A stretch of DNA of 64,000 nt from Prosthecobacter sp. GTDB lineage: Bacteria; Verrucomicrobiota; Verrucomicrobiia; Verrucomicrobiales; Verrucomicrobiaceae. The position numbers were made by a program, and so were the translations under genes. A model generated the notes under the pieces. That model had not been told where the DNA came from. It did no database searches and saw only the letters and a program-made list of their open reading frames with translations. Shown here one piece after another: positions 27,001-37,244 of the stretch (positions are counted from its first letter, which is position 1; each line of letters starts with the position of its first letter). The stretch lies in the NCBI RefSeq assembly GCF_034366625.1, contig NZ_JAXMIH010000008.1, positions 868,001-932,000 on the forward strand. The letters run 5' to 3'.

Positions 27001-29739
27001 GCCACCAGCACCCTCACCATCGGCGGCACCCTCACCCTCAATGGTGGTGCCATTCTTCAGACCACGCATGCGGGCAGTCACAACAATTCCATCGTCGGCG
27101 GCATCCTGACCAGCGGCCTGTTGAACACGGATGGTACCAGCGCCGATCTCATCGTGCATAACTGGAATCCGCTGCGGGCGCTGAGCATCGGCTCCATCAT
27201 TGCGGACAATGCGGCCGCAGGCCGTGCGATCAACCTCGTGCAGTCGGGAGACGGCACCACGGCGCTCTCCGGCAGCAACACCTATACCGGAACCACCTTC
27301 ATCCAGGGTGGTGTGCTGCGCCTGGACTCCGCAGGGGCGCTGCCTTCCAGCAGTCATCTGCGCCTTGATGGCGGTGTGCTGGGACTCAATTTCAGCAACT
27401 TCACCCTCGGCCTCGGCACGGGTGCCACGCAGGTGGACTGGACCAGCAGTGGCGGCTTTGCAGCCTACACGCTGGACCGTTCGGTCAACATTGGAGGCAG
27501 CGGTGGCATGCTCGTCTGGGGTGCCGGCGGCTTTGTTCCTGACAATGATTCGCTGCTCCTCGGCGCCCAGGATGCTGACAAGACGGTGACCTTCGTTAAC
27601 GGCATCGAATTGGGCGGCAAATCGCGCTTGATCGAGGTCACCAGCGGTCGCGGCTCCGCCGCAGTGGATGCGGTGATGAGCGGAACTCTTCAAGGCGAGG
27701 GCGGCAGCCTCATCAAAGGCGGGCTGGGAGTGCTGTCGCTTGGCGGGGCGAACAGCCATACAGGCGGGACGGTTCTCGCCGAAGGCACTCTGATCGGAAC
27801 AGGAAACTCCTCGTTTGGAACCGGAACGGTGGAGGTTGGAACGACGACGGATACACGTTCGCAGCAGGCGGCCCTGACGCTGGCGTTCCAGGGGAACTCC
27901 CTCACCCAGTTCAATGACCTGACTTTTGGCAGCGTCAACCGCGAGGGCATCTCGGTGTTCCAGACATCGGCGGCTTCGGTGGCTGTCAATGGCACGGTCA
28001 CTTTGAATCGTGCACTCCAGCGCAATGTTTTCCTCGCCACTCCTGCCGCGACCACGGTCAGCTACAGTGAGATCACCGGCACCGGCGGCTTCACCGTCAT
28101 CGGTGGCGGCACGGTGAGCCTGCTCAATGCCAATTCCTACGGCACCTCCACCGGCGCCAGCGGCACGGCCGTCAATGGTGGGACGGTGGTGCGCAACGGC
28201 ACGGTGCTGGTCAACAATCTCAACTCCCTTGGCGGCACCACCATCGAGCTCGGCGACGCCACCTTTGCCCTGGCGAATGCCAGCTATGCGACCAATGGCA
28301 GCTCCGTGCTGGGCGTGGAGCGCACCATTGGCTTTACTTCCAACAATCGCTACGCCCTCGGGGGTGTGTTTGTCGCCGACGGCAACGGCGAGGTGGACGG
28401 CGGCGGTGCGGCCAATGCAGGGGCCGGGGCATTCTACAACGTCAGTACCACCCTGGGCGGGCACACCTTCACCAGTGCGGACGTCAACGTGCGCATCCTC
28501 GTGAAGGATGAGGTGGCCAATCCAGAGCGCAACGGCATCTACCGTGTGGTGCAGTTGAACCCTGACGGCACCATGAACATTGCCCGCGTGGATGATTTCA
28601 AAACCACTGCCAACATGCTCCATGGAACCCAGGTGACCGTGACTGGTGGTGCCACCTATTTCATGGCGGCCCCCAGCGTGACTGCTGTCAACGCCACCGG
28701 CACGGATCCAGTGTTCTGGATTGAGGACGCGGCCAATCCCAATGTCACCCTTCAGATCAATCACGCCTCCATCACCTCGGTCACCCAGGCCATCGACATC
28801 AACGCCAATGGTTCGGGAACCACCACCATTGTCTCCGCCAATCCGGTTACCTTCACCAATACCGTCACTCTACAGGATGTGCAGGCAGGAGTTCAGGAAA
28901 CCAAGACGCTCACCATCAACTCTGGCACCAGCACTGGTGCTGGCGTGGCCTTCAGTGGCGTCAATAGTGTCATCAGTGAGGCGGATGGCGGAACCGGAGC
29001 TGGAGATGACATCCTCTCCCTGCTCAAGACTGGTGCTGGCGTGGTCACGCTCTCTGGGGCCAACACCTATCATGGCACCACCACCGTTTCCCAGGGCACC
29101 CTGTTGGTGAACAACAGCTCGGGCTCCGGTACCGGCTCCGGCAATGTCGTCGTTCAGGCCGGTGCCACCTTGGCTGGCTCCGGGGCCATCGTTTTGGCGG
29201 CTGGCAACGACATCAGCATCAATGAGAATGCCGGCATACGTGCAACCCTGGCCGTTGGCACCCCGGGAAGCGGCAGTGCGCAGACTTTTGGCATTGAGTT
29301 GCAGACCGGCAGCGTCCTCACGCTTTCCGGCATCTTGAGTCTCGACTTGTTCCAGAACGACGGCTCCGCCATCTCTTCGCTCAGCGAGGGAGATCGCCTC
29401 ATTTTGAGCGGCACCGGTGGTGCGGTGACCCTGACGGGAACTTCGAAGCTGACGGTGGCCGCCCTTGGGGGGCTGGTTCCCAGCAACTTCAATGCGGGGG
29501 ACACGTGGAAGTTGATCGACTGGGCGGGAATCATTCCGAGCGGAACCTTCAGCAACCTGACCGGCACCTATAGCAACAACTTCGTGGATCTGCCAGACCT
29601 CGGCAGCGGTAGATTCTGGGATTTGAGCGCTCTCTACAGCGCAGGAACCATCATGGTGGCTGTCCCTGAACCTGGGCGGCTGCTGCTCCTCGTATTCGGC
29701 TTTCTGGCGTTGGGCTGGAGGAGGCGTCGGCGCTGGTAA
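1..29739 (+). CDS. Giant PATR-repeat surface protein with PEP-CTERM sorting signal (5' end outside window)
   Basis: The frame is open from base 1 to the TAA at 29737-29739, giving 9,912 visible residues. The true start lies upstream, so a TTG at 61 is not a credible start. The protein is low in charge and rich in Gly, Thr, Ser and Asn. It consists of recurring beta-strand repeats of the type 'K-G-G-TLTLSG-NTYTG-TTVNGGTL', the autotransporter-associated (PATR) signature. There is no C-terminal beta-barrel. The chain ends with a PEP-CTERM signal: a VPEP motif at about 29662, a hydrophobic helix (LLLLVFGFLALGW) and a terminal RRRRRW cluster. In known systems that signal is processed by an exosortase during cell-surface anchoring. 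Kilobase-scale super-repeats and interrupting modules are listed separately. A role as an extracellular fibre, adhesin or sheath is inference. The cassette A-D genes follow 137 bp downstream. Confidence 0.93.
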   Translation, partial: FGQTLRFGGGTAETPSTTPTLFGDAAGGNGTVTIAADPNVAFDGVVSDEGRTMTIVKTGAGRLYFSGTASANSLQSGTTIEIQDSNLVLVGGTASGAFNPIGSAGIKLNGGGLILDSKGATLTGTGPTFANSVTVQQNATIQSVVNAATTTLGGVGKTIVIGSGLTLTLDAISGGRPATDPGATLAIAGNISGGTNTNLLIRSTLMNAGSLQGPLASSLATTAQPAVGVLPATLNNTATVTVASTEGLAAGLAVSGSGIPGGTTILSIDSPTTFTLSASATGTGNVTLSLVLPTPLVGFSTAARGIVALRGDNTGFDGDVDVGPGAVLRVETANSLKGNDVNLGINSTLSLSSDGDGTGGLENFAYDLHLTMQGNGTLTVGRLGTSQAPLFTQAANKTSQVATLALGRSTLTVANNNGYGFEVTGQTTLSGAPTIIVNNASTSNVVPGLTLSGVLTGGATFVKAGNGTLVLDNAGNDFGGGFDISTTGSSGSNQLTTATTAFLVVGEPVSGAGILANTVISAIIDGTTFQISQNLNAANSGLTTVTPQIEVTGGVLAVSHDGAFGAAANRVRLNVPAASGAGLRIIGDVTTTRTIILNQANNAVDVTAGNTLTMNAAFSIPFATNNLQKNDLGTLVLTQNQTDWNGNLTVGQGVVRVNNAGVFGNTASFNPSTNVTTAGTLIANVAAALELTGNINIGETLVFSPGNNNTSNGINAGGALRSVSGNNIWSGAITFSGASGTDNQMRAALIGVDAGSLHITGEIAGRVGTAGTGRGSWIGLTGAGTGFIDTAMTHNGTLANGIYSLAKVGSGTWNLTAANIFSGQNVYVNQGTLALNGAGTLGVPGTGGGAGTVVVTLGGTLWLDNNATNTINRLSNRTLNLYGALVNYDGRASATSTETTTGTLTFNPGHTIITLTAGATGQANFTTGAVTRNAGSTVLFRGSNLGAVAGADTATIQATGAGYLFNLGQAGVAGTANKGILPYAIIDSTFDQLGDSFATADTVNGQLRALTASEFVLTLTNSQGGGLVTPLPMNVSLSTNQTLSAGLTGNVLTANSLTLTSGGKVTLQSSQTLTLDSGGLLAFTGNVGIVGGRLSTTSSRELIVHALGNLNISSAIVASAGGMAKSGAGELTLSSTNYYTGSTRLNQGTLKLAGGTNTIFYNNDFTLQGGTLDLNGNAQVVSSFRTDMATAQNANFIPDAGGTVINTSGSMATLGMVTGGSFSGKIGNAVLADSDIALVRATPAGSFGDWNIYTANTYTGPTLLNGGRTQLLGTATLQGTSAIEISQATLLISNGNATSILDQNINTRINDAAGITLRGGMLQYRARFGSEGFEDFGALTLAGGNSVIDVAEPGTGINSSTITFTDLTQQPGSHGTLRFLNVDGTIDNQRARVYFDNLNGFPTTTVGAGLVNNLIGGWAVFEREFASYTPGTGVGALNTVGYAGYSPNDINAGGAADNIRMTFPAVTSTGSIGKNILTVASTVNLRVGDAVLGTGVPNGSQVSAIINGTQFAITRDLTAANPTLTLPQTVSLTADRTVNSLAMLVSGNSTLDLNNKTLNLVSGGLIASQGFDSTGTVSVVSSSTSSPTVIVGGLPSTLVVGSSLLGSTVTAVNGTTITLAGNASANISGPSDQTFLSALSMPVTIANGSLTAGGTPGTAADLYLHALNYLNGQDPYNRDLVVSANIVNNGAGAVTLVINGAEGRSGTRFGTNEVFLTGSNTYTGGTFVNAGKVVARSAGQAFGTGNLTITGGFSTNGNGFMENSTLVQFGASNQVASGATVSLLGGSTLDLNGFNQTLGGLVVNNTGGNTPTLSISTGTLTLSGGITATSSNLGSVSTISTGILTSSAIIGSPTVLVGSTAGLAVGTGVSGTGIPAGTTIAAIPDGRHITLSANVTGTGTTLTFSQEIISSSTVSGSATVTVASTARLSVGAPVRGAGIPDGATIAAIVDSTHFTLSVNGTAATATVTNASVPLTYAVAGGFAPLTFAGRGSLALSSGPSHIFDVSAVTANGVSLAPLLPTLNITGIMTGAGASIDKTGNGILQLGGANTFDGGVDLQNGGILFGSSSVFNDDTNGVVTAGPLGTGTLTLSGANNLTLLTSANQVIGNPVSVTSTGEFRFNSTVATGSNLTLSGTVTLPSAVTINVINPGMTAALGIITRQTSAGAITITKKGLGTLALGSVVAGNTIALTLDASLNDAGNLALLNDGDGTGSRETIDSKVTLTSSGPVNLTVGRLGTTYLPLFTTAANKKIQIAGASGTSFTSGPLMVTNNTGYGLEITSAATLGADQLISVSIASVSNVVQGLTLAGVVSGAFSITKIGTGTLVLGSASNSFGGSGKMIDIQGGIVSVGNNGALGDLANQVRLNVNAATGVGLRATGTFATSRTIILNQALNAIEVTAGNTLTLNTAFTLGAVNNALQKNDNGTMELAAANTTWTGTLTIAAGAVRVSNASALGTTAGATTVTGTGAALQLSGVSIAEPLTLNGSGINNGGALQVFSGTSTVSGTITLGSATTIGADSGTTLNLTGTLSSAQALTFAGAGAINKTTTGFGAVSSITKMGSGMTTLNVNSAAFVGALVVNEGTFKITGTGVTIGGTGTITIQGPSGVLLIDDSAGAAVTHFSGARAVTLNGGALTYLGGTGAYSQTLGALTTNRGKTNVITSTRGAGTNLTTFLQWNNGGDSSTLFAGAGLGVDANNRIIFTNAPGAAGTLGMINNVIQRATLNGTDFVSYNHNGTAANTNGIQTFTGYVTNNIIDNTGLVVPPPTVVAATATMDLTATPVFVGTTSRTVNALKLSGTGINLGSGITTQGATLTLAAGAILNTGASNTLNEALRIHFNVQAYLAVAGGTTLTSNSLLTGGSGFVKDLGGTLVINAPDDRAGVANLSGQTLTGNFAINAGTVKLGGGNNTLTPNQFMLIAPGATLDLNGTSQFVFGIRGDGAALQGNAGTVTNSSVNQAAFIIGADNGGFNWGGVIKEDAGKGAMSFLKSSPQQYNFLNESTHSGATVFAGGVNLLADGGRLTNTSSIAVNYAYLQLNDNVIFALANRVNLAADITLRGGSLVYQGRIQAETSQAVGNVILAEGYNMIQAANGGTGINSATLNILSLIRPVGSTATLRFPDNGLGAIGSNGRIIIPTFNFNGTDVSTSTVGAGLTNNLIGPWAVVDREFASYAPPATFTLSSTTANSSQTVTTASTAGLSIGMAVSGGNIPFGSYITSIVNGTTFTISNTTAASGEGVASLVFTLASVGVGRLNQVGYAGYSINTLNGTPLATDNIRATASVGPLVADTTVNTFAMVNPGAAQTTVDLGGFQLTLQGGGLLLAHSGDNRNITITNGTITSGTLNVASDLYVHALPYGGTNRTAVIDAAIVNNGTGAVRMVFSGSDGAANLTLNGTNTYTGGTVVNGGVLIIGATGSIAGGGITINGGYNSGSGILAQQAGGVIDSSNIVTINGTGLLVLAGEQTLQGLVFNGNGGGTTVPTVSSGEGLLTIGAGGIVSTPFNPAAAPLLVGRIDLGPTANTVTVNTYDFNSFTNFAPTTPGLIMGGVVGSSGGFTKNGNGVLQINQSTFTGAVNVTAGNIQSGAFNSGSRFADLNLGAGTSLNLNGQATVWGGLGGSGSVYNTVANAQTLTVGFNNNDSTFSGQINRFNDGVPNGVFLNKVGTGTMTITGTQNPLSGSTGTVTISQGTLAYSGAAGKALMPTQTIQRSGTLLLDNNSTTSTNANNRLASPLTSVANSTLNISGGTLRIVGNSGVNTTELLTTLTVANGGGLLDLEADPGRNLTLTVTNLSSISTGGTMLLRGNFNAVGVSGQQNGFANLAVTNFPLLFTQLNTGNGTFTMNTRPDIIADRSLTGLGTAFVTKDSVSGYLRPLADNEMRTTLANLSQDNFSLNSNQVINNGFNAAINSVRLLNGGGIGVSSSAGYSSEAFGLQGRWAGNLVNAGPLTEFVRTGGVIAFEGNAGITTPGLGAYSGWFYFHTIGENTNLNISSILWNVGGGLVKSGAGTLTLSARSYYYGNTIVNEGTLMLDGSNDSLGLVRPDLTATSHVAAYSNLYMNGGKVDLNGGSQMLGTLGTANALPVGGEITNSSATAAMLTVNTGSGVFGGSLTGNLGFNKSGNSDLILSNANTYTGATIVSGNTLTLRDSGTLSGTSSVSVNYSQLQWENRGLNPLDNSNPVRVAASVPLNLQGGTFTIQGGGSFDTTVAFDNVAIQRGGSIINVFPTFNAGSAVELTIGNLQRAAADHGVVNFVSNVGMGGSGNNNNARVLISAVNGAGFSATQLTNGIIGGWAVVNGNSFATYKDGVGVGELSSVVGGNVFAGGNVFPAYNGGDLSSTTTQATWNINDTSNRTLTLSKGVNSLRMANGGAAQTITLGSGTTAVTLTLGVGLLTNTGQATNIVSANAASALTASGSELFVFVNQGTTTFNTRLTGAIDLVKSGGGTLTLGNITANSPSNDFTGTTYVNQGTLNLNADAVRIMIPGNLVINNSTVTMNTNKFDITTGQIAATSNVTLNGGATLSFANYGATTTTLASLSFNNEGGVAQPAVRFNAPTALHTLNLTAANAITVVNNNPGTTPLIAAATNNANNSLVQFSNAAPVIHVSGLSPVGLVITSKISSTGAAIAKEGSGSLALFGASTYAHGFHLKDGTLIFGLNTVGTPGALTSGAIGTGMLTLGGGGPGTNPIIQAANRLAPSMNTTNLSANVIINTGSTATSLALAVGQAVVGSGVRTGSFITSINSDTNFTLSHAMNSTNAANFLRLSTVVGNAVTLAGDFTFGGDSPTWHQHYDLTLTGGVNLGGGSRTITVSSPWASGYISGQITNGVNFTKDGAGILVLTNSNNSWSGTTHIKNGILVLGSLAAGADNLVIPDGSAVIIDAGAMLDMAGRHERIGSLAGDGVVTNSHNSIAGFPNLFSTLTVGGDNTSTEFSGVLTGTSNLFALVKEGSGTLTLSGVLSNYTGSTTINGGTISISTLGNGGAVSGIGAASFAAANIVLNGGTLKYTGVTSTTNRSLTIGAGGATVDASGSGALTISAANITTLAYGTTNQARSLTLTGTANATLVNVFGKIIANNGSGLTTLTKAGTNTWALSATNTYTGATTVSGGTLAVTTGGLANTAITVQNGATFGALTTGTYNTGTAPGAGTAGSMLTLNAGSSFTMANNNSAGTFALQQQDSFAGNKGLIIGSTNNADPTVRMTFDLGASSGLVANNTDTITVSRGITVNQSGATVAILPQTGITSLTIGNYDLITFLSGGLTLGDPTFAEAFTLASNAIILGSNPYSLDLVMLTSAGAETALVGSAARVALKVTAAAFENAYWKGTTNTSWATSTNWFSNEAGTTPLGGIPGAFTHVSFTTDTGATNLTTSLAGDRTIASLTFRDEATAAVTINDNTLTIIGAGITTEALSGAHTINSNVRLGSNQIWTINSANALKVDGLVSDNLFGFSLTKAGAGTLLLNNGANTYSGATTINGGVLAVTTLANGGSASGIGASGDDAANLVINGGTLRYTGGTASTTRIFSIGSSGGTIEASGTFVNEFNTGALTFAGVQSMGFNGQSGARTLTLGGANEGLNTLVVALGDFSTAPADKTSLTKTGDGTWVLAPNNAIVGLSGTIQGGTPTIVRNTNTDGLIVNQLITGEGIAAGTFVFSIGVDGAGTFRLSQAAIVPAEDVITIDGADTSGLQENVTMTDAQGNVGSGPGFDYTVIDILPSDSITASWDGETLTVTVADTSVLMVGDTVDRNGTPNPEGIYTIDSIESADSMVISTPAATTTINGVDTNGLMAGTRVNAQGTPDPEGLYTVETILAPDSFVISAPVTEQNFVLNAAPGNGYTGVTTITGGILSTTDLQNGGIASGIGASSSAAANLVINGGFLRYTGTGATTDRLFTLGAGATAGGLDASGTGALVFSNTGSMAFTGVGTRTLTLTGTSDAAIVNVLAALIGNNGADATSLLKKGSNTWQLSGSSTYTGTTTIEAGTLVASDIVGAGSNIGSASSAVILGGASTQGTLSYVGNTDTFTRGFTVSAGGGRVDVVNSGTTLTIGTGNVDMAANGSVTFGGAGNTFITSAITAGSGGVIKEGAGTLRLSNNSNAYTGATVVNAGVLQVGLSNVGRTGTGATTVNAAATLAGSGLINGTAGTVGNNFTDGTNHVFNSGAVLQPGDNAGASIGTLTFNGNLTLNDGSFSSFQVVSRTLLDTTILTKLLSGEYDSIGGHRDLKVVETGPSSWNGTAVPAGAHDSIVINGALILNHNTFTIVDGGFVAAAASGQVFDLGDWLDLDAVSSFNVGTNYRSGGSGGGDLILPTLSGGLVYDVSQFATYGIFTIITQPSVIPVLMNSYNVAGGGSWNTATNWRPATTPNSIGGIVNLTSNITSNAVVTLDGTKKAGIIIIGDQNNSNHFEIRPGTGGSLNFDNGDYGRALLSKVLSNSNSVGIDVINAPVLLSSGLNINVNSGGAGARLDISGAISQDGGARDVTIMGAGRVTYSGLAANTYTGLTTVFSRGFGDATNPQLVLAKSASLLAGASISTSSGSTTVTLTSGSTSNLFVGMRISGNPNIPVNATISSITNDTTFVISAAATATVSGVGTNFGSYSATTASGSATVTLTGGNTAGFYVGMPITGNANIPVGTTVAAITNASTFVLSTTATGAGTGVVTSFGTDIVNGAIIGNLKLGNMSQGGLGSTVVHLGGNNQIADTSIISFDGGVGGFATGNGGNNPYFKLMGFSDTVGGLSDFTASGVIENTEGENLMSDSTLTLNTSGVNYYNGFMRDRANNTGSGVLNLVVAGTGTQVLALGNISYSGSTTINSGATLVLESTTNFGNSNGGAAAQTGPRTISNSGTLVMRINNGVTWNFARVAAGTGAFVRDGGTGTLNLNFSNPALNSTYSSGNTTVTVASTEGLVANMAVSGAGIPAGAVIQQILSPTTYQLSAAPTSPGTNLSLTYRSGNFGGDISVLEGGTTNFNSATSTAGAFNLTARTALTTVNWNSALTVQGGLNVVGTGDNVLDGAILNISSASAVTGAVNLRLGDMNIFGASGALGAATTAINIYGTGDTRTTSLVGLELSNGSGTTNSNRLGDATAVNLHSGRFMLTGSGGGAVTSSETVGALSLLGGASYVSSVNINAASNALTFVSFGTRAAGSTLTFDSLSSTFDTGGTITVSSGLANTNNIIGGWAIRSTSRDVSGNQTQFREWAAINGSNQIVALAEGSYETAGTGSWGSTDNVKLSSAQTVTLPTTIHSLNIQDTTGRTLTINPGLTLIVNSGGILSTRATHTITGGTLTAGTYGGSLSPYELSFHLPTNQLNVNSIIANNGANAVSVVKSGASVLVLSPGFNRATSYVNGSTTLTVTGGGGVADLVVGARVSGANIPAGATIVSINTGNNTVVISETPTASGTNVGLSYGLFNTYTGRTYLNEGTVQIARESDLGANPVSLTADQLTFNGGRLLATGDFALDDPNRGITINGGDAVFSVSSNRTLKIGGSPINGVGGRLILSASSGVTGVLLVEGNHDLSGGIETQGANNSTTGALSSTFTNGSTTVTVTSTSGLQIGAVVTGNDLDLDGNLDDIPAGTTIASIIDETHFELSTPAISDATRNLTYSGFNTIRLTGDNTIGQIRVIGSGVTLTGNNTLTGNIVVTSGRLEIGGTSTLAGTVTVSGGTLTLLSDTALNAATGYALNLAGGTLNLNDHSTMVTSLSGAGTVTNNGVSGGTLVVNQSVSTVFNGLIRDGNALQGSVSLVKSGNGVLTLASSLNTYSGATVINGGTVNVGSLDIAGFASSIGVSSNAAANLVLNGGVLRYAGASSMFTDHSFTLGAGEAAGMIVADGSRLEATLQMGFAGLSPVVEFSGSGPRTLTLGGSNRGSNVFNLVLGDGADGPTSLTKIGNGTWVVGRTNGYSGETLVLAGILAATADGAFGAQAGAGVVIGGGTNTSNVLGSLNATVDLRNVLYNTVDQMHLAGGTLAATTGSSSWAGSVFVTADSSINVGTGAMLNLKNTLGGAGGIIQFGEGTLILSGQADLTTRDFPAAATTAGVPNHTVQAGTLRLDYSTSNLSKLSDKGALILGGSRLGGALQLAGDGVVGAISAAEHVEIVSGVTLNAGANSISRISGNAILQMNAISRAAGATLNLSENDIASTDSNNVNGIIGGWATVGGSTWATKSTTNDAGGTVTANQNGLIRGLANGSYTLSGAFIPAATANDWVTNANMDIVGNSTQNARTTNTLRFNNTSPDANRTPSSANTPYVVTLSGVNLIQSGGILFTPNMAAHSGLISGTGTIATGAGAGQNLAVIQNNTGTGLLKIAAVIANGTGGTNGLDKLGVGSLVLSGRNTYTGANTFNAGILTISQLAIEGLAANTVLTSTNVSLGRTISVGTTNGLTFGQTVSGTGFLAPVTITAITGTNTFTVSNGAVLTATNDLTYGAASGQSGSITSTITNGSATITVASTAGLTPGQSVSGPFGIVGGSVIDTIVNATTFTINQPATASGTRNDITYGSPGLISGTLSSTTQSGALVRVASTLGLIVGQTISGDGIVGGSTIARILDDHLVEITNPVTNTNQNNRTFGVTTIGATVNGATTTLGSTTVGVGSTTGLSVGQAVSGLGIPEGATVAAILGTTQVVLSVPAVLSGTSTLVFADNRSNLGASTNAAANVVFNGGVLQYNGLSGRTDRGFTINADAIWDVGNAYSTLTVGGNFTTPTTEDHYVIRKLGAGVLELLGTVTPNSGSYGLEELRVEDGTLRLQPTFGDQFVRGDVGSLTLGGGKLEVVGSASVSLTQNMPGALVVNEGASVIRVTATGTTNTTLNLQDLNNPQPVAFGKGSTILFAEDSVFGAGAAIITLAGQFGIDQQVVIPRAVYQTAIDILNPGVNYFAFVDFNQVAFNVIASDNISIGGTAAHTIQGNPADWTATQHVMDGALSVDAFNGTTADVASVNTIRFFNSSSSTTGDTTASGNVITDINVTRLEVGQIIRGSNIPEGTTITAVDAVNGTVTLSNPVSASQDNAVLYVDALATSTLTIGGTLTLNGGAILQTTHAGSHNNSIVGGILTSGLLNTDGTSADLIVHNWNPLRALSIGSIIADNAAAGRAINLVQSGDGTTALSGSNTYTGTTFIQGGVLRLDSAGALPSSSHLRLDGGVLGLNFSNFTLGLGTGATQVDWTSSGGFAAYTLDRSVNIGGSGGMLVWGAGGFVPDNDSLLLGAQDADKTVTFVNGIELGGKSRLIEVTSGRGSAAVDAVMSGTLQGEGGSLIKGGLGVLSLGGANSHTGGTVLAEGTLIGTGNSSFGTGTVEVGTTTDTRSQQAALTLAFQGNSLTQFNDLTFGSVNREGISVFQTSAASVAVNGTVTLNRALQRNVFLATPAATTVSYSEITGTGGFTVIGGGTVSLLNANSYGTSTGASGTAVNGGTVVRNGTVLVNNLNSLGGTTIELGDATFALANASYATNGSSVLGVERTIGFTSNNRYALGGVFVADGNGEVDGGGAANAGAGAFYNVSTTLGGHTFTSADVNVRILVKDEVANPERNGIYRVVQLNPDGTMNIARVDDFKTTANMLHGTQVTVTGGATYFMAAPSVTAVNATGTDPVFWIEDAANPNVTLQINHASITSVTQAIDINANGSGTTTIVSANPVTFTNTVTLQDVQAGVQETKTLTINSGTSTGAGVAFSGVNSVISEADGGTGAGDDILSLLKTGAGVVTLSGANTYHGTTTVSQGTLLVNNSSGSGTGSGNVVVQAGATLAGSGAIVLAAGNDISINENAGIRATLAVGTPGSGSAQTFGIELQTGSVLTLSGILSLDLFQNDGSAISSLSEGDRLILSGTGGAVTLTGTSKLTVAALGGLVPSNFNAGDTWKLIDWAGIIPSGTFSNLTGTYSNNFVDLPDLGSGRFWDLSALYSAGTIMVAVPEPGRLLLLVFGFLALGWRRRRRW
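703..870 (+). repeat. Interrupting module, copy 1 (in giant CDS)
   Basis: This is the clearest copy of a ~56-residue module. It reads 'TVTVASTEGLAAGLAVSGSG', then IPGGTTI, then TTFTLSASATG and a short strand. Other copies share the pattern TVTVAST-GL--G--VSG-GIP-GTTI--I---T-FTLS-. Confidence 0.85.
1456..1641 (+). repeat. Interrupting module, copy 2, splitting a PATR unit
   Basis: The copy sits between 'GNDFGGGFDIS' and 'IEVTGGVLAVSHDGAFG'. The duplicated block around 6950-7070 carries the same flanks joined directly (SNSFGG..MIDIQGGIVSVG), so this copy looks like an in-frame insertion of about 60 residues. Confidence 0.8.
4408..4590 (+). repeat. Interrupting module, copy 3
   Basis: It contains 'ILTVASTVNLRVGDAVLGTG', then VPNGSQVSAI, then TQFAITRDLTAA. 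A degenerate further copy (TVIVGGLPSTLVVGSSLLGS) follows at about 4735-4900. Confidence 0.75.
5530..5925 (+). repeat. Interrupting module, two tandem copies
   Basis: Two adjacent copies are seen. The first has 'STAGLAVGTGVSGTGIPAGT' and the second 'STARLSVGAPVRGAGIPDGA'. Each is followed by an AAI strand and a hydrophobic FTLS- or ITLS-type strand. Confidence 0.82.
9535..9735 (+). repeat. Interrupting module splitting the IGGWA super-repeat
   Basis: The module (STAGLSIGMAVSGGNIPFGS, then TTFTISNTT) lies between 'REFASYAPP' and 'VGVGRLNQVGYAGYS'. In the homologous unit at 4261-4340 these flanks are contiguous (REFASYTPGTGVGALNTVGY). Confidence 0.85.
14095..14290 (+). repeat. Interrupting module (divergent copy)
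   Basis: It reads 'ALAVGQAVVGSGVRTGSFIT' followed by TNFTLSHAMNSTNAANFLRLS. The flanks (AANRLAPSM and VVGNAVTLAGDF) resemble the contiguous stretch near 6280-6340. Confidence 0.7.
15500..19080 (+). other. Internal 'old C-terminus / new N-terminus' junctions in the giant protein
   Basis: At about 18799-18990 the sequence resembles the true C-terminal end of the same protein: a '-DL-DW' motif, LPTLSGG, 'YDVSQFATYGIFTI', compared with 'KLIDWAG', LPDLGSG and 'WDLSALYSAGTIMV' at 29508-29655. It lacks the PEP-CTERM segment. Directly after it, near 19000, comes 'GGGSWNTATNWRP', a typical start of a PATR passenger. A similar start, 'NTSWATSTNWFSN', occurs at about 15970, also after a long repeat-poor stretch. 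The gene therefore looks like three passenger units joined end to end. This is an inference from pattern similarity. Confidence 0.6.
16819..17460 (+). repeat. Cluster of three divergent interrupting modules
   Basis: Three module-like segments lie between 'GTWVLAPNN' and 'NGYTGVTTITGG', which would form one continuous PATR unit without them. The second and third contain near-duplicate blocks 'VDRNGTPNPEGIYTIDSI' and 'VNAQGTPDPEGLYTVETI'. Confidence 0.7.
19561..19965 (+). repeat. Interrupting module, two tandem copies
   Basis: Two copies with 'LFVGMRISGNPNIPVNATIS' and 'FYVGMPITGNANIPVGTTVA'. Each ends with a TTFVIS or STFVLS strand followed by an ATATGxG-type linker. Confidence 0.82.
20635..20820 (+). 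repeat. Interrupting module
   Basis: This copy (STEGLVANMAVSGAGIPAGA, then TTYQLSAAP) interrupts a PATR unit between 'GTLNLNFSNPA' and 'GNFGGDISVLEGG'. Confidence 0.82.
21994..22785 (+). repeat. Two interrupting modules at about 21994-22195 and 22570-22785
   Basis: The first separates 'ASVLVLSPGF' from 'NTYTGRTYLNEGTV', the exact strand junction that is contiguous in ordinary PATR units. The second (STSGLQIGAVVTGNDLDLDG, then IPAGTTIASI) carries a short extra Asp-rich insert, LDLDGNLDD, which could be a calcium-binding loop. Confidence 0.78.
25048..25875 (+). repeat. Four tandem interrupting modules
   Basis: Four consecutive copies include 'STAGLTPGQSVSGPFGIVGG', 'STLGLIVGQTISGDGIVGGS' and 'STTGLSVGQAVSGLGIPEGA'. 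They separate 'QLAIEGLAA' from 'NLGASTNAAANVVFNGGVLQ'. At about 23296-23380 the equivalent flanks are contiguous (DIAGFASSIGVSSNAAANLV). Confidence 0.85.
26803..26995 (+). repeat. Interrupting module, last copy
   Basis: It reads 'VTRLEVGQIIRGSNIPEGTT', then TVTLSNPVSASQDNAVLYV. It is the copy nearest the C-terminus. Confidence 0.78.
28440..28735 (+). other. Non-PATR domain near the C-terminus (phage-tail-like pattern)
   Basis: This stretch breaks the Gly/Thr repeat texture and has many charged residues: 'VRILVKDEVANPERNGIYRV', then NPDGTMNIARVDDF, then GTQVTVTGG and PVFWIED. From memory, 'LVKD...NGIY.V...RA.DFDT..' is a pattern found in phage tail and fibre proteins. The assignment is tentative. 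Confidence 0.45.
29662..29739 (+). other. PEP-CTERM sorting signal of the giant protein
   Basis: A VPEP motif is followed by a Leu/Phe/Gly transmembrane-like helix and a terminal Arg cluster just before the stop. This is the classic tripartite exosortase recognition signal. No exosortase gene is in the window. Confidence 0.88.
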
Positions 29740-29876: not shown

Positions 29877-32800
29877 ATGAATGCAAAGCATCTCACTTCT
29901 CCCCAGAAGAAACGGCGTCACGCCATGGCGCTCATCATGGTCATCACCACCGTCGCGCTGTTGTCCATCCTCATGGTGGCCATCTTTTCGCTCACGCAGA
30001 CGGAATACAAGGCCACTCAAAGCTATGTGGCAGGCCGGTCGGCCAAGCAGCTTGCAGACACGGCCGTCTCGGTGGTGGAGGCACAGATCCAGAACGGTCA
30101 CTTTGACCCCGTCAACAACTCGCAGGAGTATTCTTATTCAAACAGAACCTTCCATGCCACTCAGCCGGGCATGGTCAGGGTGTACAATGCCAACGGCACC
30201 TTCAAGTCGGCCTACAAGCTCTACTCCAGTTCCCAGATGAAGGTGACTGGATCCAACGAAGCCCTCGTGTTTGGATCTGCGCACCAGATTCCTGCCAACT
30301 GGAAGGAAAAAAATGCTCGCTTTGTGGACCTCAACGAACCGGTGATCAGGCCTTCGCTCACCGCAGGCGCACCGGCCGTTTATTTTCCCGTGATCGATCC
30401 GCGCGCCGGCTGGAACTACCTCGGCTCCCAGACGCCGTCCGCAGGACAGCCGGACAGCCGGGTGGAGGGTTTCTCCTATGCCAAGAAAACAGCCTCAGGC
30501 GCTGGCACCACAGTGACCTATTCTGAGGTGGTGCTGCCTGCGGATGCCCAGGGCGACGATTCCAGACTCCGCCTCCCCATGCCAGTGGAATGGATGTATG
30601 TGCTGCAGGACGGCACTTTGGGCGCCCTGGACGAGACCGACCATTTTGTCAGCTCAACCGGCATCGAAGCATCCGCAGACAACCCCATTGTGGGCCGCAT
30701 CGCCTTCTGGACGGACGATGAGTCCTGCAAGGTCAACATCAACACGGCTTCCGAGCCGACTTTCATGGGCACCCCGTTCTATTTTAATGACCGGGATCGC
30801 ATGTGGGCGCATTTCACCGCCGCCACCGGGGAGTATCAGCGCTATCCGGGACACCCCGCCACCGTGGCTTTGAGCTCGGTTCTGGCCCCCAACATCCGCT
30901 TGGACCCCTATCTTCCAGGCAGCGGTGTCACCACCAGCCAGATCCTTGACATCAAAGAATATATTTATGCCATGACACCCAAAATCGCGGGGGGCGGCTC
31001 CTTGGCCGGCACCCGGCCTTTTGCCAGAGATGACGTCAACGTCGGTGAAACAGCGGCACTGGCGATCGACTCCTCCACCGCCAGATCGGAACGGCTCTAT
31101 GCCAGCGTGGACGAGATGCTCTTCAAGGACGGTGATTTCGTCTCAAAAAAGGGCAGGCAGCCGGCCAGATATGAAATTGCCGGTGGCCGTGTTCTTTTTG
31201 ATCACGATGTCCTGGAGCGCTCCAGATTCTTCCTCACCGCCCACAGCCGTGCTCCCGAGTTCAGCATCTTTGGCCTGCCGCGCATCTGCATGTGGCCGGT
31301 CGATGAAAATGAGAATAAAAACAACGAAAAGCGCACCAACTTCGACAACATGATCGCCCTCTGCTCTTCCATCAAGGGCGTGGCCTCCACCTCGGGCGGT
31401 TCCGTCGAGAAGAGCTACATCTTCCGTCGTTCCAGATCCTATGATTCAACTTATGACCTGAAGGGGACCAATGGGCTTCAGCGCAACAGCCAGTTGCTGG
31501 ACTACCTGGCCGCCCAGATGTCCGGCCTTTCCTGGCCCAGAACCACCACCAACCTCGGCAACTCCCTCAATTATGCCACGAAGTACGGTGCGGATAATGT
31601 AAACCAGCTCGCCGTCCAGTTCTTCGACTACATCCGCTGCACCAATCTCTACGATGGCGTTTTGTCGCGCAGCAACGATGGCAGGGATGGCAATAACAAA
31701 TCTGGGACGGCTCTTTATAACACGCGCGATACTACGCGGCCCAAGGCTGTCACGTTCACCGATCAGCGCCTCACCCGGCCCGCTACCAGCATGAATGTGG
31801 ATGAAACCCGCAGTGACGACACCGGCGTTCTCCCCGGCCACGGTCAGGTGTCTCCCGCCGTGTGGGGAAAGTCGGGCAAGAGCTACAAAGGTTTTGGCCG
31901 CATGTTCACCCTCTCCGAAGTGGGCATCCAGGTCATCTGCACGGCGGATGGCAAGAATGACCCCAACTTAAACCCCGCCTTTGGCCCAGGCAGAACCTTG
32001 AGCGGCGGCGGTTCCAGCGTTCGCATTGATCCCGCCGTTAATGTTGAACCCGGGCAGCCTCAGCCGCCCTATACATGGGCGGAGGCCTACCCGGGCATGA
32101 CCCCCCCGGCAGGTGCTGGAACAGCGCGCTGGTACTCCAACTTTCCCCCTCTGGTCGCCACGCAGAATGCCCTCCTTTATGGCACCACCATCGACCCGGC
32201 ACACCCGGAATGGCACCCCTCCAAGCATCCTGCCTACTATCCGGAGAACTGGAACATGACCCTCGCCGCCGACACCCCGCTCACAGAAACCCAGAAGCGC
32301 GTGCAGGCCATCATTCTGCTGGAGGCCTTCTGCCCCAGCGTCGGCTGGACGAAGTTTTTCCCCGAGTACACCATCGTTCTGGATGGTGATTACATCGGAC
32401 AGATCAAGCTGGATAATAAGCGGATCTTCGACACGACAGGAAGCATTGCGGTCAAGTCTGACGCCAACATCTATGACTCCACCACTGGATTCGTTTCTCC
32501 GTTGGGCGGCCACGCGGGTCCGTCCGTCATCTGCGGCAACCGTGGCGGGCGCCCGGTCAGCGGTGAAGGGCAGGTCATGCTGGGATCTGACCGCAACTAT
32601 GACACCTCCAACCCCACCGGGCACAATGCCTTGGCCAACTACGGCATGACCAGCAACTTCCTGACGGTTAATCGCGACACGAATATGTCTTTGACATTCC
32701 CGACGGGCGAGTTTGTCATCAAACTCTACGACACCCACAACTGGGAGAGCAGCCAGCCCATCCAGATCATCAGGATACAGTTCTCGGATGCCGGTGCCAC

Positions 32801-34754
32801 CTCTCTTCCCACCCCCGGCCTGACCGGTGCGGAGCCGGGCAGCGGTGTGGGCAATCCCTGGCTGGCCATCACGGAGGATCAGTATGGCCGCAGAAGGTAC
32901 ACCCGCGCGCGCCAGGGACCGCACTACTGGTGCTACAATTTTGAAGGCTGCTTCGGGCAGATGACCGGCAGGATCAACCCGAACTATGGGAAGTCAGGAG
33001 AATCCATGTGGATCCAGCCTCCCCGTTTGATTCCTGCGGGGGTGGCGGACAACCGCGTCCAGCAGTCTTTGCGCGGCAGGCTGGATACAGGTGCCGCTGC
33101 CGCCACGCCTGCACCGCCGTACGCCGCCAATGGCGTCAGCATCATCCCGGACGGTGTCAGCGACGTCACCCGCACCTTCATTCCCACCATGGGGGATTAC
33201 CGCATCCTTGCCGCCATGTATGATGTGCCCGCCACCTACTGGCAGCCGCATCCAGGCTGGCAAACCAGCGTGCGCAGCGTTCACAGCTTCACCAATTTCA
33301 GCGGAAACTCGGTGGCAGGCTCCAGACTGGCGGTCCCCGCCTCAAGCAATCTCCCCTCCGTCACGGTTCCCACGGCTCCTGCGGTGGATACAAGCCTGCA
33401 GTTGGTTTATGGAGCCAACTACAACCTCTTGTTCGACAATAACAACAACCCCACCGGCAGGACGGTTGACCAAACCAGCGGTGACTACAATCGACGGCAG
33501 CCGGACCTGCCCGGCCAGGTGGCCTGGGCCAGGGCCGCCCAGAGCTTTGGTGACTTTGACACCGGCCTGACCAACACCCGTGAAGGCCCTTACATCAACA
33601 AGCCGGATGAAGGCAACTTCTACGTCGGCAATCAGGAACGGGGCAACATCACCAAACGCTATCGTTCAGCCTATTTCTTCGATTCTTGGGAGCAAAATGA
33701 CGACTGGCGCAGCGGCATCTACATGACCCCCAACCGTCTGATCAGTTCCCCGGTCATGTTTGGCTCGCTGCCCACGCAGGCTTGGAAGGGCGGATCGATC
33801 CCTGCCGCTGCCAGCCCGGCAACCACTGACTACAAGCCCTGGCAGACGCTCCTGTTCCGGCCCCACTCGAACTATAGCGGGGTGGGCGGCAGCAAGACCA
33901 CCCATCCGGGTGAGTACAATCCCAAGGACCACTTCCTCCTGGACATGTTCTTCATGCCCGTGGTCGAACCCTACGCCATCAGCGAGCCGCTTTCCGTCGC
34001 CGGCAGGGTCAACATGAACTACCAGATCATGCCCTTCACCCACATCACCCGCGCCACCGGCATGCACGCGGTGATGAAGGGGGAATTCATGACCGCCGTC
34101 CCCCTGGGCCACATCAATAAGAGCAAATCCTTCAAACCCGTCAGCGGTGCCGGTGCCTGGGATGACAACTACTGGAATGAGAAGAACGACAGCCACTACT
34201 GGCATCGTCCCATCGACGTGACGGAAACGCTGCGCCAGTTCGAGGAGCGCTTCGCCAACAACACCGGCCTCAACACACTCACGCGCGGCCTGTTCCGTGC
34301 CGCCAGCCAGATCTGTGAGATTTACTTGGTGCCGGAGGACAAGACCGGACCATTGATCGGCAATGTGTCCAAACCCATGAATAGTCCGTCCATCCGGAAA
34401 TCCAGCATGGATTCGTTTTGGTCGGACAACCGTGCCACGGGTGACAATGTGCGTGAGCGGCCCTACTCGAACCTCTACAGCCGTCTGACCACCCGCAGCA
34501 ACACCTTCCGTGTCCATGTGCGTGCCCAGATGCTGCGGAAGGCGCGCTCCACTGCTCCGGATGTCTTCAATCCCAGCAAGGATGCAGTGCTCAGTGAGTA
34601 TCGCGGCTCCACCCTCATTGAGCGCTACATCGATCCAAACAATTCGCCCGACATCCCTGATTACGCCGGCTCAGCAGGCAATCCGCTCACATCGGCGCCG
34701 CTGGAGTCTTTTTATCGGTTCCGTGCCCTCGAAAGCAAGCGCTTCAGCCCCTGA
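29877..34754 (+). CDS. Verru_Chthon cassette protein A (GspK-like giant minor pseudopilin)
   Basis: This 1,625-residue protein begins with a basic leader (KKRRHA) and a hydrophobic helix (MALIMVITTVALLSILMVAI, residues 17-36). It matches the family I know as Verru_Chthon cassette protein A. Three features resemble GspK, the tip pseudopilin of type II secretion: a 'MALIMV' start after the presumed cleavage site, no Glu at mature position 5 (Met there), and a 'DDESCKVNINTAS' motif near residue 280, which recalls the D-E-K-N-N motif of GspK. It is about five times longer than GspK. The rest is globular, with Trp/Tyr/Pro-rich segments I cannot assign. The -1 residue is Ala rather than the usual Gly. 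The gene overlaps cassette B by one base (TGATG). A role at the tip of a pseudopilus is inference. Confidence 0.85.
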   Translation: MNAKHLTSPQKKRRHAMALIMVITTVALLSILMVAIFSLTQTEYKATQSYVAGRSAKQLADTAVSVVEAQIQNGHFDPVNNSQEYSYSNRTFHATQPGMVRVYNANGTFKSAYKLYSSSQMKVTGSNEALVFGSAHQIPANWKEKNARFVDLNEPVIRPSLTAGAPAVYFPVIDPRAGWNYLGSQTPSAGQPDSRVEGFSYAKKTASGAGTTVTYSEVVLPADAQGDDSRLRLPMPVEWMYVLQDGTLGALDETDHFVSSTGIEASADNPIVGRIAFWTDDESCKVNINTASEPTFMGTPFYFNDRDRMWAHFTAATGEYQRYPGHPATVALSSVLAPNIRLDPYLPGSGVTTSQILDIKEYIYAMTPKIAGGGSLAGTRPFARDDVNVGETAALAIDSSTARSERLYASVDEMLFKDGDFVSKKGRQPARYEIAGGRVLFDHDVLERSRFFLTAHSRAPEFSIFGLPRICMWPVDENENKNNEKRTNFDNMIALCSSIKGVASTSGGSVEKSYIFRRSRSYDSTYDLKGTNGLQRNSQLLDYLAAQMSGLSWPRTTTNLGNSLNYATKYGADNVNQLAVQFFDYIRCTNLYDGVLSRSNDGRDGNNKSGTALYNTRDTTRPKAVTFTDQRLTRPATSMNVDETRSDDTGVLPGHGQVSPAVWGKSGKSYKGFGRMFTLSEVGIQVICTADGKNDPNLNPAFGPGRTLSGGGSSVRIDPAVNVEPGQPQPPYTWAEAYPGMTPPAGAGTARWYSNFPPLVATQNALLYGTTIDPAHPEWHPSKHPAYYPENWNMTLAADTPLTETQKRVQAIILLEAFCPSVGWTKFFPEYTIVLDGDYIGQIKLDNKRIFDTTGSIAVKSDANIYDSTTGFVSPLGGHAGPSVICGNRGGRPVSGEGQVMLGSDRNYDTSNPTGHNALANYGMTSNFLTVNRDTNMSLTFPTGEFVIKLYDTHNWESSQPIQIIRIQFSDAGATSLPTPGLTGAEPGSGVGNPWLAITEDQYGRRRYTRARQGPHYWCYNFEGCFGQMTGRINPNYGKSGESMWIQPPRLIPAGVADNRVQQSLRGRLDTGAAAATPAPPYAANGVSIIPDGVSDVTRTFIPTMGDYRILAAMYDVPATYWQPHPGWQTSVRSVHSFTNFSGNSVAGSRLAVPASSNLPSVTVPTAPAVDTSLQLVYGANYNLLFDNNNNPTGRTVDQTSGDYNRRQPDLPGQVAWARAAQSFGDFDTGLTNTREGPYINKPDEGNFYVGNQERGNITKRYRSAYFFDSWEQNDDWRSGIYMTPNRLISSPVMFGSLPTQAWKGGSIPAAASPATTDYKPWQTLLFRPHSNYSGVGGSKTTHPGEYNPKDHFLLDMFFMPVVEPYAISEPLSVAGRVNMNYQIMPFTHITRATGMHAVMKGEFMTAVPLGHINKSKSFKPVSGAGAWDDNYWNEKNDSHYWHRPIDVTETLRQFEERFANNTGLNTLTRGLFRAASQICEIYLVPEDKTGPLIGNVSKPMNSPSIRKSSMDSFWSDNRATGDNVRERPYSNLYSRLTTRSNTFRVHVRAQMLRKARSTAPDVFNPSKDAVLSEYRGSTLIERYIDPNNSPDIPDYAGSAGNPLTSAPLESFYRFRALESKRFSP

Positions 34755-35278
34755 TGCCTTTTCACAATCCTGCTTTTGCCATCAACATGAAGTTTCAAAA
34801 AAACATCGCTTCGTCACGTAGAGGGTTCTCGCTGGTCGAGGTGACTCTCGCCGTGGCGATCGCCGCCCTCGCCATCATCACCTTCCTCGGGCTGCTGCCA
34901 CAGGGGCTTGAGGTGTCGCGCAAAACGGCCCAAATGGCCGCCCACAGCAACATTCTGGAGCAGATCGTGCGTGATCTGGAGAACGCCCGGTGGGACAAGA
35001 TGCCGACCGGCAATGATGAGCGCAAGTTTTTCAATGATCAGGGTGTGGAGGTTGACTCCGAATCAACCGAAATCACCCTGGTTGCCCAGATGGACTACTC
35101 CCTGCCTGCCGCCCTGCCCAAAACAGAATCCAGCCAGAAATTTCTCCGCCGTGTGGTGGTCAAAATCGCCAACACCAGCAGCACGGAGTTTGATTTCGAT
35201 CCTGAAAAAAAATTCACCTATGCCACCTATAACCACTTGGTGGCCAAAACCCGTGCGAGCACCTCCATTTCAAAATGA
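34754..35278 (+). CDS. Verru_Chthon cassette protein B (GspI-like minor pseudopilin)
   Basis: The 174-residue protein has a prepilin signal at residues 22-30 (RRGFSLVEV), with cleavage expected after G24 and the conserved Glu at mature position 5 (E29). A single hydrophobic helix follows (VTLAVAIAALAIITFLGLLP), then 'ARW' and a compact domain. The short size, the 'FSLVEV' start and the helix pattern resemble GspI/PilV. The start at 34754 overlaps the stop of cassette A (TGATG), which suggests coupled translation. An alternative ATG at 34787 would also leave a normal leader. The end overlaps cassette C by four bases (ATGA). Confidence 0.85.
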   Translation: MPFHNPAFAINMKFQKNIASSRRGFSLVEVTLAVAIAALAIITFLGLLPQGLEVSRKTAQMAAHSNILEQIVRDLENARWDKMPTGNDERKFFNDQGVEVDSESTEITLVAQMDYSLPAALPKTESSQKFLRRVVVKIANTSSTEFDFDPEKKFTYATYNHLVAKTRASTSISK

Positions 35279-36492
35279 CTGCTTCATTCCGATATGCCCG
35301 CACCCCTCTTCTCAGGCGGACTTTTGTCTGTGGTGCGAAGGGGTTCACCCTCATCGAACTGCTCGTCTCGATGACCTTTCTCGTCATCCTCATGCTCGTG
35401 GTCACCCAGGTCATTGGCATCGTGCAGCGCACCTGGGTGCGTACCAATTCACGTGTCTCGCAGTTCCGTGAGGCGCGCATGGCTTTTGATGTCATCTCCC
35501 GCACCCTCAGTCAGGCTACGCTGAACACCTACTGGGAAAACGAATTCGATCCCCTGGGGACGGACATCGCGGGCGAGAAGAAGTTCAAGGCGAAAAACTA
35601 CGTCAGGCAGTCTGAACTTCAGTTCGTCTGCGGTCCTACCACCGGGCTTCTGCCCCTGGCGGCGGCCAACAGCCAGAATTATCCTGGCCACGGCGTTTTT
35701 TTCCAGGCACCGCTCGGGGTCACTAAGCTGGTCGTGGCCGGCACCGGCGATGTGAACACCGAAAACATGGTCAATCTCATGTGTGGTCGTGGTTATTTCG
35801 TCGAATGGGGCAGCGACGAGCCTTTCCGTCCGCCTTTTCTCAGTACGCTCACCTCGGTTCCCTTGCGGTTCCGCATGCGTCTCATGGAATACAGCCCCAC
35901 CGCCGAGATGAACAGGATCTACGATTCCTCCCTCAGACCTCTGGTGGATAATGAAACCGGCACCAACAACGGGAAGAAATGGTTTCAGGAGGGGGAGACG
36001 GGCGCGCTGACCAGCATCGTGAAGGACAATGAAACCACCGCGAGCAGGGCCTTCACGCGTCCGGTGGCTGAAAACATTCTCGCCCTCATTATCTCGCCTC
36101 AGCAGGAAGTTACCGGCAATGCCGGCAACCCGTATGACATCGCGCCAAACTACATCTGGGATTCCACGCTCACCATCAATCCTGGCGCCTCGGCCTCCTC
36201 GGCAAATCCGCAAGGAACCCAGCACCTGCTGCCGCCCCTGCTCAAGGTGACCATGATTGCACTGGATCAGATGGGCGGGGAAACGCTGTCACGCGAAGAA
36301 AATGAAGAGTTGCGGGAGAAGGTTCTTGGCAAGGTGGGCGGGATGTTTCAAAAAGCCTCGGATTTCGCCAAAGAACTGGAAGGCACCGAAGACAGCCAGG
36401 GGGAATTGGAGGAATTGCTCCTTTCCAACAAGCTCAATTATCGCGTCTTTACCACTACCATCGCGCTCAAGCAATCACGTTGGAGTTTATGA
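35275..36492 (+). CDS. Verru_Chthon cassette protein C (GspJ-like minor pseudopilin)
   Basis: This 405-residue protein has a class III prepilin leader with 'KGFTLIELLVSM' at residues 22-33, cleavage after G23 and Glu at mature position 5. The helix continues as 'TFLVILMLVVTQVIGIVQRT' and is followed by 'FREARMAFDVISRTLSQA', the region where GspJ/PilW proteins carry a similar 'AR-AF--I-R-L' signature. It is about twice the length of GspJ. Residues 330-385 are rich in Glu and Lys and probably helical. It overlaps cassette B by ATGA and precedes cassette D by 29 bases. Confidence 0.85.
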   Translation: MTASFRYARTPLLRRTFVCGAKGFTLIELLVSMTFLVILMLVVTQVIGIVQRTWVRTNSRVSQFREARMAFDVISRTLSQATLNTYWENEFDPLGTDIAGEKKFKAKNYVRQSELQFVCGPTTGLLPLAAANSQNYPGHGVFFQAPLGVTKLVVAGTGDVNTENMVNLMCGRGYFVEWGSDEPFRPPFLSTLTSVPLRFRMRLMEYSPTAEMNRIYDSSLRPLVDNETGTNNGKKWFQEGETGALTSIVKDNETTASRAFTRPVAENILALIISPQQEVTGNAGNPYDIAPNYIWDSTLTINPGASASSANPQGTQHLLPPLLKVTMIALDQMGGETLSREENEELREKVLGKVGGMFQKASDFAKELEGTEDSQGELEELLLSNKLNYRVFTTTIALKQSRWSL

Positions 36493-36521
36493 ACGCCTGA
36501 GGAGAAAGGGCCGCTACAGCC

Positions 36522-37244
36522 ATGACAATCGAATCCAAATTCATGCCGTCACCTTGCAAACGCCGGAGCGCGCAGTGCGCTGCTTTCTCCTTGATTGAAA
36601 TGCTGGTCGTGGTGACCATCATCGTGCTGCTGCTCGCCTTCACCACCCCGGCGCTGATGCGAACCATGCAGTCGAGCAGGCTCACTTCCGCAGGTGATAC
36701 TTTGTTCGGTGCCATCTCCGAAGCCCAGCAGATGGCTTATGCACAGAATGTCCCTGTCGAAGTGCGGTTTTTCAAATTTGCCGAAGGACTCGACACCAAC
36801 ACGAACTTCCGGGCTTACCAGATGTTCAAGGTGACCCTGACAACAGAAGAGGATGGTGATGTCGTCGAAACTTTGGTGCCCGTCAACAATCTGACCCGGA
36901 CTCCAGAAGGCATCATCATCGTGACTGACCAGGAATTGTCCCCCATGCTTTCAGGCGCGAGTCTTCCAGATTCAAAGCCGGGTGGCGGTGCCATCGGCTA
37001 TTCCGGCGTTGAAGGTGCCGAGTACAACGCCATCCGCTTCATGACAGACGGCTCCTGCCGCAAAGTGGAGGAGACAGCGGACGGACTGGCGGGCCTCGCC
37101 TATCAAACACTCCCATCGAGCTTTTTCACCATCACGATTGACAACGGTCAGGAAATAACAACCGCCAATCTCCCCAAGAATTTTTACACCATCCAGATCG
37201 ACCCTTTCACCGGCAAGGCGCGCAATTACAAGCCAGGATTCTGA
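36522..37244 (+). CDS. Verru_Chthon cassette protein D (GspH-like minor pseudopilin)
   Basis: The 240-residue protein begins with a Cys/Arg-containing leader and 'AAFSLIEMLVVVTIIVLLLA' (residues 20-39). Glu is present at mature position 5, but the -1 residue is Ala21 rather than Gly. After the helix, 'LFGAISEAQQMAYAQNVPVE' matches the arrangement of GspH/FimT, where the same segment precedes the first strand of the C-terminal beta-sheet. The length is somewhat above GspH. A GAGGAG-type ribosome binding site lies about 18 bases before the ATG. It is the last cassette gene, 67 bp before guaB. Confidence 0.84.
   Translation: MTIESKFMPSPCKRRSAQCAAFSLIEMLVVVTIIVLLLAFTTPALMRTMQSSRLTSAGDTLFGAISEAQQMAYAQNVPVEVRFFKFAEGLDTNTNFRAYQMFKVTLTTEEDGDVVETLVPVNNLTRTPEGIIIVTDQELSPMLSGASLPDSKPGGGAIGYSGVEGAEYNAIRFMTDGSCRKVEETADGLAGLAYQTLPSSFFTITIDNGQEITTANLPKNFYTIQIDPFTGKARNYKPGF

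Follow-up and report, generated by a model that had tools for sequence, protein, structure and literature searches.

We analyzed a 64,000-nucleotide stretch of a Prosthecobacter sp. genome (contig NZ_JAXMIH010000008.1, positions 868,001 to 932,000; hereafter the window), in which four genes at 29877-37244, here called A to D, encode proteins resembling the minor pseudopilins of the type II secretion system (T2SS). We propose that these genes form an orphan minor pseudopilin set, with A being GspK-like, B GspI-like, C GspJ-like and D GspH-like, and that this set would serve as an exchangeable tip on shared T2SS-type machinery, its usual cargo being the giant protein encoded next to it. We give this reading as a whole a probability of about 0.5, and its parts, which are of unequal strength, are weighed below.

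The four genes are real open reading frames arranged in tandem on the plus strand and partly overlapping: A at 29877-34754 (1625 residues), B at 34754-35278 (174 residues), C at 35275-36492 (405 residues) and D at 36522-37244 (240 residues). As members of NCBIfam families, they were Verru_Chthon cassette protein A (TIGR02600, 1145 bits against a cut-off of 332), B (TIGR02598, 86 against 51), C (TIGR02599, 354 against 256) and D (TIGR02596, 106 against 70). With all four above the curated cut-offs and adjacent on one strand, the locus is the Verru_Chthon cassette itself, whose gene order differs among relatives. NCBIfam gives these families a name and no function, and the terms "Verru_Chthon cassette" and "Verru_Chthon" did not occur in the open-access literature searched; thus, they are unexplained to the extent that we checked. 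Our additions are their identity as K-, I-, J- and H-type proteins, the enlargement of K and the context of a shared machine.

An earlier note on this DNA had ascribed pseudopilin-like N-termini to the four proteins, and a prepilin-type N-terminus with a long N-terminal helix was indeed seen in each of them, with a Glu residue at position 5 of the mature chain in B, C and D but not in A. In A, the alignment placed the prepilin leader, MNAKHLTSPQKKRRHA, at 29877..29924 (plus strand), with a putative cleavage site after which the mature protein would begin with MALIMV. Among homologues, this residue (Glu5) was present in 132/132 of B, C and D and in 0/52 of A; the earlier note had remarked on its absence in A. 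The lack of Glu5 in one subunit is familiar from GspK and PilX (PMC7541494).

Each cassette protein was compared as a profile with each of the four Gsp minor pseudopilins (4x4 hhalign). The cassette homologues came from 80 loci of named genomes plus additional loci, and the Gsp sets from Verrucomicrobiota, this genome and Escherichia coli K-12; the resulting probabilities are single-target hhalign values, not database-calibrated ones. A matched GspK with 92%, against 6-8% for H, I and J. B matched GspI with 96.8%, C matched GspJ with 97.4%, and D matched GspH with 99.1% across 201 columns, its full length. Every cassette protein was therefore nearest to one distinct Gsp minor pseudopilin, with the diagonal winning each time, and the assignment of A to K, B to I, C to J and D to H made in the earlier note holds in the full comparison. 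When all alignment members were scanned, the commonest family outside the cassette was gspJ for C (37/48), gspH tied with ComGD for D (39/43 each), and XpsI for B (20/42), followed by PilV and GspI.

Scans with single sequences reached GspK, GspI/XpsI, GspJ and GspH through the N-terminal helix only, and A-D did not attain the NCBIfam equivalog cut-offs for gspH, I, J and K. As a control, the H, I, J and K proteins of the canonical cluster in the same genome also missed these cut-offs, and the NCBIfam matches of its H, I and J were as weak and as local as those of B, C and D. Scores below threshold are thus usual in this genome, and the weak scores are little argument against the identity. The cassette thus shares with GspH, I, J and K (XcpU, V, W and X) the prepilin N-termini, the single subunit lacking Glu5, the pairwise profile correspondence and the K-type DExxKxNxN motif, and we regard the homology of A-D to the K-I-J-H set as very likely.

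Judged by its sequence, A is a much enlarged, GspK-like minor pseudopilin that lacks Glu5 and carries a very large insertion. Three landmarks stand in it in GspK order, all on the plus strand. The first, DDESCKVNIN (30714..30743), which the earlier note had picked out, follows a pattern, DD[ED]xxKxNxN, found in 52/52 homologues; the second, AGRVNMN (33999..34019), belongs to the pattern AGKxNxN, found in 48/52; and the third is a C-terminal strand motif, TRSNTFRV (34491..34514), with the pattern TxSNTFxV in 42/52. The spacing from the first to the second is roughly 700 to 1,150 residues in A, compared with about 105-125 in GspK, and the total length of A is four to five times that of GspK. An AlphaFold2 model of an A homologue of 1195 residues (L108) had a mean predicted local distance difference test (pLDDT) value of 84 and a predicted template modeling score of 0.86. 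In this model, the N-terminal helix is followed by strands at 71-223 and then by the long insertion, and further strands close the chain at 1116-1192; the region of the TxSNTFxV motif formed the strand 1116-1127. Up to about ten or more proteins of 700-1,600 residues with a GspK-type N-terminus were observed per genome in many Verrucomicrobiota (G045, G015, G023, G039, G048 and G078); they are not full-length cassette A, and enlarged GspK-like proteins are spread more widely than the cassette.

No major pseudopilin, ATPase or secretin gene was found in the window to the right of the cassette, nor among the inspected genes just upstream, in agreement with the earlier note. Secretion machinery is, as that note had supposed, encoded elsewhere in the genome, in two T2SS-type clusters. 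C11 carries a single cluster GspE-F-G-H-I-J-K, and C30 carries GspE-F, H-I-J-K-type genes and a GspD-type secretin; the genome has six secretins in all. Because full H-I-J-K sets exist in the same genome, A-D can be regarded as a spare set of this type. As described, each T2SS machine has a single minor-pseudopilin set. The cassette departs from GspHIJK of the T2SS in that it has no machinery genes in its cluster, numbers from 1 to at least 27 per genome and varies in gene order. We consider that it probably uses the shared T2SS machinery. A separate pilus-like cluster was also observed, in which the gene for a PilB-type ATPase of 723 residues is immediately preceded by four small genes of pilin-like type (L134:5730-9896, in G000:C30).

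The gene upstream of the cassette is one giant reading frame on the plus strand that covers 1..29739 of the window and starts beyond it, at L010:16324. It encodes an exported PATR protein of about 10,471 residues in total, with an N-terminal signal peptide (MKTLRHHRLLLGWFM...), a PA14 domain near the N-terminus and at least 21 PATR repeats. At its C-terminus stands a PEP-CTERM sorting signal, VPEPGRLLLLVFGFLALGWRRRRRW, at 29662..29736 on the plus strand (TIGR02595, 18.1 bits against a cut-off of 16). The protein has the attributes of a PEP-CTERM/exosortase substrate, namely a signal peptide, a C-terminal PEP motif followed by a transmembrane segment and an Arg cluster, and an exosortase in the genome, which encodes three. 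A barrel was searched for in this giant and none was seen. Its NCBIfam matches from window base 61 on comprised only PATR and PEP-CTERM, without the PilY1 C-terminal domain, and PA14 was the sole Pfam match in the first 775 residues. The earlier note was right about a giant exported neighbor without a barrel but overlooked the PEP-CTERM end, which alters the picture because it indicates exosortase processing. Elsewhere in this genome, one PATR protein with a Phe-terminated, barrel-like C-terminus was observed (G000:C6:480607-482634, L140:3262-9471), which by this C-terminus resembles a barrel autotransporter and is unlike the PEP-CTERM giants.

The cassette and PATR genes were then surveyed across genomes. 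A cassette C protein above the cut-off was present in 54/59 genomes of Verrucomicrobiaceae, the copy number ranging from 1 to at least 27. In the closed genome G155, with 150 PATR matches considered, at least 12 of 24 A genes had a co-directional PATR frame no more than 5 kb away; 2000 trials of random placement averaged 0.98 and never exceeded 6. Among Verrucomicrobiaceae-type loci with both flanks, 49/88 adjoined a co-directional PATR gene, as did 2/34 loci beyond this family. The association of the cassette with PATR genes in Verrucomicrobiaceae is therefore non-random, which in this family supports the link that the earlier note drew between cassette and giant. The cassette linked to guaB, as in the window, was kept together with the giant across Prosthecobacter-like genomes, with the exceptions L068 and L089. 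In one locus (L041:7458-13682, minus strand), a PATR-PEP-CTERM protein ran in frame into A with no stop codon, for which a gene fusion, loss of the stop or a misassembly could each account. This case, like the preference of PATR genes for the A end of the cassette described below, counts in favor of the cassette-PATR link.

The neighboring giant may be the cargo, at odds slightly short of even. A strict one-to-one dedication of cassette to giant is quite unlikely: this genome has one cassette, whereas four further PATR/PEP-CTERM proteins, including three of very large size, have none, and in G155, among the PATR matches listed, half of the A genes had no PATR neighbor and most PATR genes had no cassette. 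The earlier proposal of a dedicated tip with one giant client thus survives as a statistical link in Verrucomicrobiaceae but not as a strict pairing. PEP-CTERM was also considered as a feature shared by the cassette-linked giants and was ruled out. In several guaB-linked loci (L081, L233, L235, L238, L242, L243 and L250), the giant upstream of A terminates not in PEP-CTERM but in another, conserved domain (...GVGYFLLPxLP...TTPxLSGQVxF), and so PEP-CTERM does not define the partnership.

In the mechanism that we propose, A-D would enter the inner membrane, and the shared prepilin peptidase would process them. They would then form a tip complex of D-C-B with A on top, a position given to A because it lacks Glu5, and this complex would prime the pseudopilus of a T2SS-type machine encoded elsewhere. 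Cargo would be bound in the periplasm by an exchangeable head, which would be the insertion of 700-1,150 residues in A; substrate binding has been attributed to T2SS tips (PMC6211770). In Verrucomicrobiaceae, the usual cargo would be the adjoining giant PATR protein and possibly its paralogues. A giant with PEP-CTERM would first be held and cut by exosortase at the inner membrane and would afterward pass through the secretin. Assembly on the T2SS, cargo binding by A and export of the giant are all steps that we infer.

Several observations weigh against this reading. The motif match of A to GspK was marginal when set against block-shuffled GspK profiles (top 31.8, best shuffle 29.9), and the score of the motif chain was unexceptional among the shuffles. 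Because block-shuffled profiles came so close, we take the collinear A-GspK chain as suggestive only. After removal of the first 55 residues, A, B and C had no significant match to K, I or J profiles, and D still matched GspH (68%, E 5e-5); the detectable homology of A, B and C is thus confined to the N-terminal helix region. Sequence searches of the PDB with the A, B and C profiles returned no pseudopilin of note, and the D profile returned pilin and pseudopilin N-termini only. The AlphaFold check suggested in the earlier note gave confident models for the A homologue and for C (pLDDT 88.7), but Foldseek comparison of these models with the PDB gave nothing significant and no minor pseudopilin. 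At the level of loci, cassettes without PATR genes occur, including at the guaB locus (L068 and L089), and the single cassette of this genome faces five PATR/PEP-CTERM proteins.

The main rival explanation is drawn by analogy from Myxococcus xanthus, in which a single machine serves three sets, each made up of four minor pilins and PilY1 (PMC7541494). These clusters 1-3 of the type IVa pilus (FimU, PilV, PilW and PilX with PilY1) are the nearest functional parallel to the cassette, resembling it in having multiple four-protein tip sets and a large non-pilin partner. By this analogy, the minor pilins of the cassette would cap a type IV pilus or pseudopilus and display at its tip, in the manner of PilY1 on PilX, either the PATR giant or the insertion of A; the giant would then be a tip component instead of released cargo. 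This would fit the side on which the PATR gene lies, which was the A end of the cassette in 25 cases and the other end in 9, and was next to A in 5/5 PATR-associated cassettes of three or more genes in which A comes last. It would also fit the additional PilB/PilT-type ATPases encoded in the genome. Yet the large neighbor of the cassette is a PATR protein, often with PEP-CTERM, and PilY1 was not found; many of the giants end in PEP-CTERM, indicating exosortase processing; most PATR genes, with the same scope in G155 as above, have no cassette; and C and D match Gsp and not the PilV/W/X families. We judge a displayed giant to be unlikely, although it is the most probable of the alternatives.

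Less probable still is that the cassettes are tips that handle or export polysaccharide-related proteins in general, with the A insertion binding glycans and the PATR link reflecting only the gene layout of one family. Beyond Verrucomicrobiaceae, the neighbors are mostly non-PATR and often carbohydrate-active enzymes, including glycoside hydrolases (GH2, GH3, GH38, GH106 and GH130), an alginate lyase-LamG protein, carbohydrate-binding module (CBM) proteins of CBM9 and CBM60, and sugar transporters, and the model of the A homologue has beta-rich regions with weak C2-like Foldseek matches (E 0.008 at best, not significant). However, these neighbors are mixed and stand without a background rate, and the PATR link within Verrucomicrobiaceae far exceeds chance. 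At loci beyond Verrucomicrobiaceae (L042-L047 and L095-L130), LacI/AraC-like regulators were also observed beside cassettes, together with glycoside hydrolases, CBM proteins and sugar transporters. The weakest alternative, that PEP-CTERM and exosortase alone export and anchor the giant and the cassette is an unrelated neighbor, accords with the PEP-CTERM end, the three exosortases and the four cassette-free PATR/PEP-CTERM proteins of this genome, but it is improbable given that the guaB-linked loci whose giants lack PEP-CTERM keep the cassette and that the adjacency of PATR and cassette is non-random.

Surface proteins with GlyGly-CTERM or MYXO-CTERM tags are transported by the T2SS or have been proposed to be (PMC3237569, PMC11980579), and the outer-membrane crossing of PEP-CTERM proteins was termed undefined in a 2025 paper (PMC12188702). 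In the GlyGly-CTERM/rhombosortase and MYXO-CTERM/myxosortase systems, as would be the case here, an intramembrane protease removes a C-terminal membrane tag before or during T2SS passage. The present case differs from them in that the tag is PEP-CTERM and the protease an exosortase, with a putative T2SS link, and in that no dedicated tip sets are described for those systems. A bolder and rather doubtful extension is that, in Verrucomicrobiota, the cassettes supply the outer-membrane step missing from the PEP-CTERM/exosortase pathway: as exchangeable minor-pseudopilin tips headed by a giant GspK, they would select exosortase-processed giants and push them through a shared T2SS. It offers a testable route for this crossing. 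The spare sets, which reach at least 27 in a genome and in each of which an enlarged GspK is a possible cargo reader, also provide a natural series of tips for asking how a T2SS picks its substrates, and a role is thereby offered for four abundant Verrucomicrobiota families without an assigned function.

Regarding the remainder of the window, open reading frames antisense to the cassette (e.g., 31968-32924) were discarded as shadows of high GC content. Downstream of the cassette lie the housekeeping genes guaB, guaA, tmk and holB, and then sugar-related genes, which form a run on the minus strand at 43605-63828 encoding a pectate lyase-GDSL protein, FAD oxidoreductases, sulfatases, BNR proteins and ThuA.
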